Assembly (NCBI GenBank): GCA_016186435.1
Contig: JACPLQ010000004.1
Span: 1-48,086, forward strand
Source of the DNA: Candidatus Nomurabacteria bacterium
GTDB lineage: Bacteria > Patescibacteriota > Minisyncoccia > Phycocordibacterales > UBA9973
Direction of reading: 5' to 3'
Length of the DNA stretch: 48,086 bases
The notes below the pieces were generated by a model. It was given only the letters and a program-made list of their open reading frames with translations. It made no database searches and was not told where the DNA came from. The translations under genes and the position numbers were made by a program. This document shows positions 4,503 through 48,020 of the stretch, in pieces. Position 1 is the first letter of the stretch. Each line of letters opens with the position of its first letter.

Positions 4503-4997
4503 CTAGGTTCTAGTTTCTAGCTTTTTAATACGACGCAGATGCCGCTCCTCGTTTAGGAACGGAGTTTTGACAAAAAGCTCAACGGCGAATTTAATCTGAT
4601 CTTCGGACAAAAATCTCGAGGCGACCGACAAAATGTTGGCGTTATTGTGAACCCGCGCCAGTTTGATTATTTCGTAGGGGTCTTGGCTTTTTTCTCCCTT
4701 TATATCTATTACTCCCGGCGGAACTGCCTCTGCGTAAAAAAGCGCCGCCCTGGCCCCCGGCACGCGGTTTGCGCACATAGCCTCGCCCTGACCGGAACTG
4801 CCCAGGATTACTCCGAAACCACTAGGGTCGTTCGCTACCGCTTCGGCTACGGGTTTTATAAAATCCGGATAGTCATCGTCCGGGTCATAACTAAACGCCC
4901 CTTTGTCTTCTACTTGGTGTCCTAATTCTTTAAAATAAGTTTTTAGTTTTTCTTTTAGTTCGTAACCCGCGTGGTCAGTGCCAATGTAGATTTTCAT
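4503..4997 (-). CDS. rpiB: Ribose-5-phosphate isomerase B (RpiB/LacAB family)
   Basis: MKIYIGTDHAGYELKEKLKTYF; ILGSSGQGEAMCANRVPGARAALFY; HNNANILSVASRF. Confidence 0.92.
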   Translation of the reverse strand: MKIYIGTDHAGYELKEKLKTYFKELGHQVEDKGAFSYDPDDDYPDFIKPVAEAVANDPSGFGVILGSSGQGEAMCANRVPGARAALFYAEAVPPGVIDIKGEKSQDPYEIIKLARVHNNANILSVASRFLSEDQIKFAVELFVKTPFLNEERHLRRIKKLETRT

Positions 4998-5011
4998 GTT
5001 TGCAGTATATC

Positions 5012-5093
5012 ACCCCGTAGTGAATTTTAGCAACGCACTCGAGGTGTGCCGCTCCGACCATGGTCGGAGCATTGCCAAAATCTACTACGGGGT
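5012..5093. repeat. MITE-like inverted-repeat element with inner hairpin
   Basis: ACCCCGTAGTgaaTTTTaGCAA...TTGCcAAAAtctACTACGGGGT terminal inverted repeats; inner GCTCCGACCATGGTCGGAGC palindrome. Confidence 0.65.
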
Positions 5094-5749
5094 CACTGAT
5101 TAACCTGTCTATGCAATTCGGAAAACAAAGCCACGGTTTTGCCGAAATCCCGCTCGGCAATGATGAAAATTAGCTCGGTCGGCGTGGACACCAACTCCTC
5201 AATATTGATGCGGGCGCGAGCGGTGACGGACAGAAGCGAAAAGAAAACATTTGGCGTCCCAAAAACTTCCGGGCCGTAGGAAATGCCGACCGCGGCGAAA
5301 TTGCGGTTTATAATTTTCGGCTTGGTTTTGAAATGTTTCCGGATTTTACTTTCCAAATTTGCCGAACAGATGATATCCACCTCCGCCGTGCCCGCCGTTA
5401 CGGTAAAAAAATCGTCCGAAGATATTTTGACATTTTTATGCAGCGATTCAAGTTCACGTAGAAAAGCATTGCTCGACTCATAGCCGAGTTCCGAAAGCGG
5501 CAGTTTGGTGGTGATGTTGGTTATTTTCACATCATGTATCAGAGGCTTTTGTTTTTTGAATTCTTTTTTGAGCCGCGACAGAGAAACGACCAAGCTGGTG
5601 ATGGTAACCTTTTTCTTGGCAAGCTCCTCCACCTGCGACCGGATGCGGTAAGCGTAACTAGTCATATTCATATAGTCATACGTCAACGCAAAGTACGCCT
5701 CGAATTCCTTTTTGATTATTTCCCGCACTATTGGCTGAATTTTTATCAT
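5093..5749 (-). CDS. Conserved protein with ACT-like domains (aspartokinase-regulatory-like)
   Basis: 218 aa; VGISYGPEVFGTPNVFFSLLSVTARARINIEELVSTPTELIFIIAERD resembles ACT-domain repeats. Confidence 0.55.
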   Translation of the reverse strand: MIKIQPIVREIIKKEFEAYFALTYDYMNMTSYAYRIRSQVEELAKKKVTITSLVVSLSRLKKEFKKQKPLIHDVKITNITTKLPLSELGYESSNAFLRELESLHKNVKISSDDFFTVTAGTAEVDIICSANLESKIRKHFKTKPKIINRNFAAVGISYGPEVFGTPNVFFSLLSVTARARINIEELVSTPTELIFIIAERDFGKTVALFSELHRQVNQ

Positions 5750-5822
5750 CCCAGTACTAAAATTTTAAATAATAATTTCTATCTTTATGTCCCGTAATCA
5801 AAAATTTAGTACGGGACAGGTA
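5747..5822. repeat. ~75-bp direct repeat with terminal inverted repeats, copy 1
   Basis: CATCCCAGTACTAAAATTTTAAATAATAAT...AATCAAAAATTTAGTACGGGACAGGTA, shared with 13013-13088; abuts a start codon. Confidence 0.8.
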
Positions 5823-5924
5823 TTAATATTCTAACAGATTTTACAAAAAGTCAAAATTATAATACGAATGTTAAAAAAATTAACAACTCATCGATTTGCC
5901 TTTAAAATTTAATCGGAGGATCTT

Positions 5925-6182
5925 ATGTGCGGAAAAGACGGCAACCAAGTGGACAGGGAAGTCAGGAGAGAACGGGACAGAGAGTACAAAGTCATCCTCG
6001 TCGAGGATACTACTCGTTTCTTCTTTGTTCCCGATAAACCCTATTACGAAGTAGAACCGTCGTACTTTTTGCCGAGGAAACTGCACTCGGCGTGGCAATC
6101 AGACGCAGTAGAAGAGGCAAGGAGAACCTACGGCTCCGGCACAGTGCTTAAGGCCGTGGCGACCATCGAAAGAAGCGAGTAA
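5925..6182 (+). CDS. Hypothetical protein (85 aa), higher GC than surroundings
   Basis: Strong Shine-Dalgarno (CGGAGGATCTTATG) and downstream GCCGGACA...TGTCCGGC hairpin. Confidence 0.6.
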   Translation: MCGKDGNQVDREVRRERDREYKVILVEDTTRFFFVPDKPYYEVEPSYFLPRKLHSAWQSDAVEEARRTYGSGTVLKAVATIERSE

Positions 6183-6237
6183 CATCGTCGAGCCGGACAT
6201 CATATGCTAGGTGCTCTGTCCGGCATCACAAACATTA

Positions 6238-7031
6238 TGCTCAAATTTTACAAATATCACGGCGCGGGAAATGATTTCATAATGATAGATAATCGGAAAA
6301 AGGTTTTTGATATAAGTGACAAAGAAAAAATTAAACTTTTGTGCCACAGGCGTTTCGGTGTCGGCGCAGATGGCATAATATTGGTGGAAAAGGAAGCTGG
6401 GTATGATTTTAAAATGGTATTTGCAAACAATGACGGCAGTATCGGCTCAATGTGCGGAAACGGCGGGCGATGTATCGTACATTTTGCTCATAATATTTTA
6501 AAAATTGTAAAAAATTCTAAGAAAGTAAAATTTATTGCAGTAGACGGTGAACACCAAGCTGAAATTATTTCCGCTAGGCAAGGCCTAGCGGAGCAGATAA
6601 AATTAAAAATGCAGGATGTGAAAGATATTGGTACAAGAAACAATCTGCCTTTTATCTGCCAGGGCACTACTCCGCACAATATTTTATTCGTGAATGATCT
6701 CAAAAATTTCCCTGTAGTAGAAACAGGCAGAAAAATCAGAAATTCCAATCCGGATGGCGTAAATACAAACTTTGTGGAAATTATTGATGGAATATTTCAT
6801 GTCCGCACCTATGAGCGCGGAGTGGAAGATGAAACTCTTGCCTGCGGCACCGGAGCGGTATCGGTTGCTATCGCTTCACACCATCTAGGAAAATTAAAAG
6901 AAAACATCTGTCATATAAAAATGCCCGGCGGGGATTTGACCGTAGAATTTAAAAAAAATGGCGAAGGAGAGTACGAAAATATCTGGCTCACAGGTCCGGC
7001 TGTTTGCGTATTTGAAGGAGAGACTAAATAA
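6238..7031 (+). CDS. dapF: Diaminopimelate epimerase
   Basis: MLKFYKYHGAGNDFIMIDN; SMCGNGGRC; RTYERGVEDETLACGTGAVSVAIAS; likely start at 6238 rather than 6204. Confidence 0.92.
6571..6591. repeat. REP-like palindrome inside dapF
   Basis: CCGCTAGGC AAG GCCTAGCGG, in frame, encodes SARQGLAE; resembles the RAYT flanking hairpins. Confidence 0.7.
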
Positions 7032-11494: not shown

Positions 11495-11520
11495 AACCCC
11501 CTAACCCCCTTGTCAGGGGA
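11495..11520. repeat. CCCCCTAACCCCCTTGTCAGGGG repeat, copy 1
   Basis: Shared with 11996-12022 and inverted at 12041-12070 and 12447-12476. Confidence 0.8.
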
Positions 11521-11522
11521 AT

Positions 11523-11550
11523 AAAAAAACCGCCGAATGGCGATTTTTTT
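11523..11550. terminator. Bidirectional intrinsic terminator (dnaE on +, ncRNA on -)
   Basis: AAAAAAACCGCCGAATGGCGATTTTTTT: stem with a T-run on both strands. Confidence 0.7.
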
Positions 11551-11557
11551 ATTTTAT

Positions 11558-11612
11558 TTTTCATTTCGTCCTTTTGGACTCATCAGACAAGACACACATC
11601 TTGTAATAAAAG
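11558..11612 (-). ncRNA. Type III hammerhead self-cleaving ribozyme
   Basis: Minus strand TTTTATT^ACAAGA-TGTGTG-TCTTGT-CTGATGA-GTCC-AAAA-GGAC-GAAA-TGAAA: complete CUGAUGA...GAAA core, stem I 6 bp, stem II 4 bp, stem III 6 bp (one G-U), AUU cleavage triplet. Confidence 0.93.
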
Positions 11613-11906
11613 GGGGAGATGCGAAGCGCAGAGCTCCCCCGAGATGTCCGCCGGCTTCGCCGACGGAATGGTGGGTGAGGATTTGTCAGCGCTTCTCCCG
11701 CTCTATCTCGCCGCCTTTGTGCGGACAAGAATCCTCGTGGTGGTACCAGTAGGAGATCGTCTGGTTTCCCAGTGTCTCCCAAACTTAGATCAAATTGAGA
11801 TGAGAAGACCTCAATCCGACCCACAGGCGTTTCAGCCCATGTTGACTTACGATGGAGGCCACCTCAGTGGCCAAACTCAGGCAACAAAGGCCTGTCGTAA
11901 CGTCAT
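11605..11906 (-). ncRNA. Undescribed structured ncRNA (~300 nt) whose 3' end is defined by the hammerhead
   Basis: Near-consensus promoter upstream; at least eight hairpins/helices including CUGG-GAAA-CCAG and GGCCAC-UGAG-GUGGCC; no convincing CDS. Confidence 0.75.
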
Positions 11907-11912
11907 GAGGGT

Positions 11913-11940
11913 AGTATAGCATATTCATAAATTTTGTCAA
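11913..11940 (-). promoter_or_regulatory. Sigma70-like promoter with extended -10 driving the ncRNA
   Basis: Minus strand TTGACA-N16 (ending TATGC)-TATACT. Confidence 0.8.
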
Positions 11941-11995
11941 GTTTTTATGCACTTTAAATTACTAACTCCGAAATAACCTTATTAAATAAGGATTA

Positions 11996-12070
11996 AACCC
12001 CCTAACCCCCTTGTCAGGGGGAACTAGGAATTCTCGCCTACCCTGACAAGGGGAGGTCGGGAGGGGTTAA
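11996..12070. repeat. CCCCCTTGTCAGGGG repeats in inverted orientation, downstream flank of DUF559 gene
   Basis: AACCCCCTAACCCCCTTGTCAGGGGG ... CCCTGACAAGGGGAGGTCGGGAGGGGTTAA. Confidence 0.75.
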
Positions 12071-12458
12071 GTAATCTTATTTTAGAAATCAAATCCTCTA
12101 ACACTTTCAGAGTATCATTTATTACATCCTGATTTTTGTATCTAATAATTTTGAGTCCGAATTCCTGTCCTAATGAATTATCTCTTTCCGAATCTCGTAC
12201 GGATTGAAATTTATGAATATCGCCATCAATTTCTATCGCGAGTTTAAATTGAGCGCAATAGAAGTCAACAATAAAATTTCCAACTGGTTTTTGACTAGTA
12301 AACTTGAGATTCGCAAATCTTTTGTCTTTTAAAATTTCAAACCAAAATATTTTTTCAGCGTTTGTTTGAGTTTTTCTTAATTCTCTAGCTTTTGAAACTA
12401 AATTCTTATCGTAAGGAAGAAATTTGTATAATTTCATGTATTTTAGTCCCCCTGACAA
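12024..12458 (-). CDS. DUF559 / Vsr-like endonuclease-domain protein
   Basis: ARELRKTQTNAEKIFWFEILKDKRFANLKFTSQKPVGNFIVDFYCAQFKLAIEIDGDIH typical DUF559; likely start at MKLYKF. Confidence 0.85.
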   Translation of the reverse strand: MSGGLKYMKLYKFLPYDKNLVSKARELRKTQTNAEKIFWFEILKDKRFANLKFTSQKPVGNFIVDFYCAQFKLAIEIDGDIHKFQSVRDSERDNSLGQEFGLKIIRYKNQDVINDTLKVLEDLISKIRLLNPSRPPLVRVGENS

Positions 12459-12476
12459 GGGGGATTTAGGGGGTTG
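12447..12476. repeat. GTCCCCCTGACAAGGGGGATTTAGGGGGTT repeat, upstream flank of DUF559 gene
   Basis: Inverted copy of the 11495/11996 repeat. Confidence 0.75.
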
Positions 12477-47513: not shown

Positions 47514-47615
47514 ATCTAAGTTGAAATATGTATTCCCATGTTACCAGATATCAACAAAAAGTGCAATAAGAGTATGTGTATTACGACTTGACACAAAAAG
47601 GCGATGTAATAAGGC

Positions 47616-48020
47616 CTAAAAACTTGAGGCAAAGCCGTCCACGAAGCGGACGGCGACCCTTTCTTCATTTTCCGCCGATGTTTCTTTGGGTGGTGCTTGT
47701 TGGAAAAAGTCAGAACCCATTTTGCGGAAAACCCCCACTAAGGAAGCCAGCCCGCCGCCGCTCGCTACCACTCGCCACCCAGCAAAAAAGTTTTCTCTGC
47801 ATTTCTGATTTTGCGCGCGACCGATTTTTTCTTCTAAAAGGAAAAGAAAACTTTTTTGCTGGGTTCTGCTCTGAACGAGCAGGGCGGCGGGCTTGGCCTC
47901 TATTTTTTGCAAGAACACGGCGGAATTCCCCCCACACCCCCCTTCCGCCGTGTTCTTGCGGGGACGGACGGAATTTTTGGCGACGACTAAATTCTTTTCC
48001 TTGCCCCACCACCCGTGCGC
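47616..48020. repeat. ~400-bp palindrome-dense non-coding element
   Basis: Stems: 18 bp (47778-47795/47846-47863), 11 bp (47749-47759/47883-47893), 17 bp (47909-47925/47943-47959), GCCGTCC/GGACGGC near the left end. Confidence 0.65.

Follow-up and report, generated by a model that had tools for sequence, protein, structure and literature searches.

Ribozymes that act in cis, glmS among them, sit in the leaders of bacterial mRNAs and cleave the transcript that carries them. We know of no bacterial noncoding RNA that owes its mature 3' end to a hammerhead acting in cis. The sections of Perreault et al. 2011 (PMC3088659) that deal with clustered bacterial hammerheads propose that these ribozymes divide polycistronic RNA into pieces the length of an operon or a gene and place them often near integrases and prophages; the general idea of polycistronic cutting is therefore already known. 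The locus described here lies in a 48,086-nt stretch of Candidatus Nomurabacteria DNA (contig JACPLQ010000004.1), referred to below as the window. From 11940 to 11521 on its minus strand, a promoter, a GC-rich stretch, a type III hammerhead, and an intrinsic terminator follow one another (Table 1). The original prediction had treated this unit as an isolated oddity, a view that did not survive comparison with relatives, as the hammerhead belongs to a family that separates genes and sometimes ORF-less structured RNAs. On balance, we favor reading the unit as a single-cargo, ncRNA-carrying version of a hammerhead-punctuated transcription unit that is spread across Patescibacteria.

TABLE 1 Features of the hammerhead-bounded unit and its surroundings (positions in the window)
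Feature	Position	Strand	Basis
Insert between convergent dnaE and peptidyl-tRNA hydrolase (pth) genes	11497..12475	.	Comparison with relatives
REP-like CCCCCTTGTCAGGGG palindromes around the ncRNA unit and the DUF559 gene	11505, 12006, 12041, 12450		
DUF559 gene	12024-12458	-	
Sigma-70-type promoter, TTGACA-N16-TATACT, extended -10 TG	11913..11940	-	Promoter scan, 11/12 matches
Structured noncoding RNA body, ~302 nt	11605..11906	-	Start inferred from promoter, end at hammerhead cleavage site
5' three-way junction: closing helix 11895-11905/11843-11852, hairpins 11894-11878 and 11872-11857	11843..11905	-	Computed fold
Hairpin, 4-7 bp	11841-11822	-	Computed fold
Long hairpin, 14-16 bp	11786..11823	-	Computed fold
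Hairpin with CUGG-GAAA-CCAG cap (GNRA tetraloop)	11750..11781	-	Computed fold
Helix, 4 bp	11748-11738	-	Computed fold
Branched helix 11736-11731/11682-11677 with two inner hairpins	11677..11736	-	Computed fold
GC-rich hairpin 5' of hammerhead: 7 bp GGGGGAG/CUCCCCC and inner 4 bp, then UUUUAUU	11612..11640	-	Computed fold
Type III hammerhead ribozyme	11558..11612	-	Rfam model and family-built model
Hammerhead stem III	11606-11609/11561-11564	-	
Hammerhead stem I	11599-11604/11587-11592	-	
Hammerhead core CUGAUGA	11586-11580	-	
Hammerhead stem II	11579-11576/11571-11568	-	
Hammerhead GAAA	11567-11564	-	
Intrinsic terminator after hammerhead: 14-bp hairpin, CGCC-AUUC-GGCG core and U tract	11521..11552	-	Fold and direct reading of sequence
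91-aa ORF	11644-11919	+	Open reading frame
87-aa ORF	11561-11824	-	Open reading frame

In a 601-base scan, the Rfam model Hammerhead_3 matched 11612-11558(-) with 33.7 bits (E=2e-5), below its gathering score of 48.5, a threshold that nearly all relatives of this copy miss as well. This shortfall is a matter of threshold, because a model built from 19 Patescibacteria sequences, the window copy among them, scores the same hammerhead at 76.9 bits (E~1.8e-16). A hammerhead core requires CUGANGA and GAAA with U at 16.1 and H at 17, and the window copy has CUGAUGA and GAAA with U16.1 at 11606 and U11605 as H17. Cleavage is predicted between U11605 and A11604, and we consider self-cleavage there very likely. 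The copy has its own peculiarities, namely, a stem III of UUAU/AUGA, an AUU cleavage triplet where the family usually has GUC, a terminator directly after the ribozyme, and no boxA-like GUUC(U/A)UU within 40 nt 3' of the GAAA. An AUU triplet may act more slowly than GUC. The GC hairpin lies directly 5' of the hammerhead, and a hairpin recurs at the same place in relatives.

The three hammerhead helices are backed by covariation in two alignments. In a plain MAFFT alignment of the window copy with 18 relatives found by DNA search, 97% of pair cells are standard, 12 of 14 pairs are changed on both sides, and the covariation score is reached by no shuffle. A model alignment of 125 hits (124 distinct sequences), which leans towards the structure because it was fitted to it, is 98.6% paired with 545 double changes, and its covariation score over the 124 distinct sequences is 0.83 versus 0.23 in shuffles. 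This Patescibacteria subfamily is marked by a compact stem II, GUCC-AAAA-GGAC, and a stem I loop, UGUGUR. With the family-built model, copies were found in 12 of 80 genomes of the genus and 94 of 398 of the order. A genome often carries several copies, on the same strand and 300 to 1000 nt apart, and arrays of 3 to 9 per genome are frequent. A pattern scan of public genomes hit 37 contigs, nearly all from Patescibacteria (Paceibacterota, Kaiser-, Taylor-, Saccharibacteria, Collier-, Shapiro-, and Woesebacteria). The hammerhead pattern matched 0 contigs in IMG/VR, and none of the array cargos tested matched Pfam or PHROGs; a viral origin was rejected on the IMG/VR and PHROGs results. We regard the sequence anatomy in Table 1, the hammerhead family, its covariation, and its recurrence as established.

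The usual order at a family locus is an ORF, a GC hairpin, the hammerhead with a stem III of CUGU/ACAG, a boxA-like GUUC(U/A)UURAA, and a further ORF; from this placement, the family seems to cut polycistronic RNA between genes. Upstream sequence was sufficient for analysis at 102 hammerheads. In 89 of them, an ORF of 60 aa or more on the same strand ends within 300 nt before the cleavage site, with a median stop-to-cleavage distance of 78 nt; the other 13, the window copy included, lack such an ORF. Of 76 distinct loci, 26 have a boxA-like motif no more than 40 nt downstream; 1.3 were expected, and two control stretches gave 3 and 1. Strong promoters within 600 nt upstream are more frequent in the sense direction (17/118) than in antisense (4/118). 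The cargos elsewhere are small orphan proteins, and a TrmB-type regulator is encoded close to many arrays, an assignment for which seven of eight tested proteins score above the Pfam cut-off. Arrays of the hairpin-hammerhead-boxA module beside a TrmB-type regulator and small orphan genes were seen at L003-L020, L058-L074, L089-L117, and L178-L189. At L071, L072, L079, L080, and L094, a conserved motif, GGAGAGCC(U)AGAGGAAGCAGAGCCUC, follows the ORF stop and lies immediately 5' of the hairpin, in many cases preceded by GUCCCCGUU; it may represent either a structured RNA or a site of recombination. In a saccharibacterial locus (L142), a hammerhead at 4984-5030 lies about 170 nt upstream of a tmRNA at 5201-5557 on the same strand. 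The genome of the window has a second hammerhead, between kinase-like and NUDIX genes (L178:10022-10084, that is, G000:C7:28021-28083). As this spot recurs in the congeners L081, L084, and L085, with a similar one in L083, it may mark a conserved site of mRNA processing.

At the 5' end of the unit, the near-consensus, TG-extended promoter of the original prediction was recovered by the scan, and its end is separated by 8 nt from the first helix of the body. The 48-kb window holds three sites of this quality against about 2.2 expected by chance; promoters of the form TTGACA-N16/17-TATACT/TATCAT are sited alike in other hammerhead units. All helices listed in that prediction are present in the minimum-energy fold, mostly with mean pair probabilities of 0.8 to 1.0, and only about 0.55 for the two inner hairpins of the three-way junction. 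The list had missed the helices at 11841-11822 and 11748-11738, the full extent of 11823-11786, and the terminator at 11552-11521, which is symmetric enough to end dnaE from the opposite side. Against dinucleotide shuffles, the fold of 11908-11545(-) reaches z=-6.3, compared with -3.1 for its complement, and the body alone (11906-11605, minus strand) reaches -4.6, compared with -2.5 (200 shuffles). The better fold on the minus strand argues for an RNA on that strand and not for a DNA palindrome. A z score of -4 or lower occurs in 3.4% of 384 segments of 300 nt from the same sequence, and some ORF-carrying cargos elsewhere fold as strongly as the body. The folding strength is thus unusual but not unique among such segments, and we take it as moderate evidence. 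Because no homologues of the body were found, the support for its structure consists of folding energy and strand asymmetry.

The body had been described as unlike known RNA families, and this was borne out: no Rfam covariance model matched it even at E<=10 in the 601-base scan. RNase P RNA and tmRNA were ruled out as identities, as the same genome has them on other contigs (C9 and C24, respectively). Searches with blastn matched only the hammerhead in 198 relatives and found no homologue of the body in 398 genomes of the order, in all 148 genomes of the family (best E 0.008 over 28 nt), or in phages and plasmids. Covariance models of two subdomains likewise found none in 337 relatives or in 0.5 Mb of hammerhead loci; these were single-sequence models with strict scoring filters, so distant homologues could be missed.

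ORF-less stretches bounded by family hammerheads occur at other loci. The nearest parallel, from the same order (L182; G395:C17:34000-46000, reverse complement 5170-6800), has a promoter TTGACA-N17-TATACT and then three successive stretches (about 360, 420, and 780 nt), bounded by hammerheads, that hold no ORF of at least 60 aa and reach sense-strand z scores of -4.0 to -5.6; it is possibly a polycistronic ncRNA operon cut by ribozymes. Two other loci (L117 and L065) combine a strong promoter, an ORF-less stretch, and a hammerhead. In Kaiserbacteria, the hammerhead of one locus (L074/L121) also follows an ORF-less stretch, but no strong promoter is close upstream and the complement folds better. 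Common ancestry of the window body with other ORF-less hammerhead segments was rejected, as their sequences share no likeness beyond 14-nt matches and one overlap artefact.

The unit and the DUF559 gene lie within an insert and have REP-like repeats around them. In L024, from a relative of the same genus, dnaE lies directly next to pth, and the unit was missing at the dnaE-pth junction of every relative whose junction was read. Such an insert, absent from a congener, suggests that the unit may have been acquired. A copy like the REP-like CCCCCTTGTCAGGGG is also found at L178:964. Elsewhere in the window, 47600-47960 contains very strong inverted repeats with arms of 28 and 17 nt, palindromic on both strands (z of about -8 on the plus and -6 on the minus strand).

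Transcription, cleavage, and a function for the body are what we infer from this anatomy. RNA polymerase would start near 11906 and produce a structured noncoding RNA of about 302 nt ending in the GC-rich hairpin. The hammerhead, transcribed next, would cut the nascent RNA after U11605, and transcription would stop at the terminator at 11552-11521. Cleavage would leave a 5' product whose hairpin-capped 3' end carries a 2',3'-cyclic phosphate and a remnant of about 80 nt with a 5'-OH. In the wider Patescibacteria scheme, strong promoters would drive arrays in which each cargo, usually a small protein gene and sometimes an ORF-less structured RNA, is closed by a hairpin and a hammerhead. For the body itself, the balance leans slightly towards a functional ncRNA, perhaps a stable trans-acting one. 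More tentatively, arrays punctuated by hairpin, hammerhead, and boxA might release structured ncRNAs, with the RNA of the window a new class that is possibly circularised or protected through its 2',3'-cyclic phosphate.

The unit might instead be the stranded remnant of an array whose cargo genes were lost or decayed, with the 302-nt body a functionless degenerate cargo or leader. The genomes searched hold no homologue of the body, its GC content of 0.55 (0.41 in the window) falls within the range of cargo segments, other arrays open with a strong promoter, in many cases followed by a noncoding leader ahead of their first ORF or hammerhead, and the insert in which the unit lies, with its REP-like repeats and DUF559 gene, is absent from a relative. 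We nevertheless think a remnant unlikely, as the helices of the body are intact and strand-biased and no damage is seen in the promoter, the hammerhead core, or the terminator, parts that decay would not spare selectively. A protein-coding region is far less probable still. Both the 91-aa and the 87-aa frame are open and cargos elsewhere are small orphan proteins, but the plus-strand ORF lies on the strand opposite that of the promoter and hammerhead, and the minus-strand ORF runs through the ribozyme core. Neither has a Pfam or NCBIfam match, the plus-strand ORF has no PHROGs match, and the codon usage of both is not gene-like, with scores at the level of noise ORFs. There is no convincing ORF in 11906-11605(-).

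A further alternative concerns the 3' end alone. The claim that a hammerhead makes it holds in that the ribozyme is genuine and rightly placed, but the hairpin and U-rich tract at 11640-11605 abut the cleavage site and could themselves terminate transcription, so the hammerhead may not be the sole maker of that end. Hairpin 11640-11612 with its UUUUAUU is a possible terminator or 3' protective hairpin: its 7-bp GC stem (P 0.99) precedes a tract in which six of seven nucleotides are U, located exactly at the cleavage site. That the end arises mainly by intrinsic termination there, with the hammerhead as a backup for read-through, is nonetheless improbable. The second, stronger terminator just after the hammerhead would then be superfluous, the hairpin of relatives precedes the hammerhead without a U tract and so does not serve termination there, and the U tract of the window copy doubles as ribozyme stem III. 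The hammerhead is probably the main maker of the 3' end.

If the predicted cleavage takes place, bacteria with very small genomes would be using ribozymes as routine RNA-processing signals, and the role of bacterial hammerheads would become testable in a conserved, recurring setting. The syntenic copy between the kinase-like and NUDIX genes of several congeners offers a second, simple test case. A literature search that took in a minority of subscription papers returned no description of the Patescibacteria module of hairpin, hammerhead, and boxA and no paper naming Patescibacteria together with ribozymes.

Compared with described systems, the window hammerhead shares its core, three helices, topology, and loop-loop layout with hammerhead type III (Rfam RF00008), but it and nearly all of its relatives score below the gathering threshold and form a subfamily with its own stem II and stem I loop. 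As in glmS-like leader ribozymes, cleavage of a bacterial transcript in cis is predicted; unlike those, the window ribozyme has no same-strand downstream gene within reach and no recognised ligand domain. Retrozymes and viroid-like RNAs (e.g., PMC4918200) are likewise noncoding RNAs with a hammerhead-made end. Unlike these, the unit has no repeat or circular unit and carries its own bacterial promoter and terminator; an element of this kind, which needs two hammerheads or a bounding repeat, was ruled out since the window has a single hammerhead. Several hammerheads per transcript are common to the Patescibacteria arrays and the clustered hammerheads in the sections of Perreault et al. 2011 (PMC3088659) cited above. 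Relative to the set in those sections, the family differs in its Patescibacteria hosts, in tested cargos without a PHROGs match, and in its 0 IMG/VR contigs, as well as in its upstream hairpin, its downstream boxA-like motif, and, in the window, its noncoding cargo.
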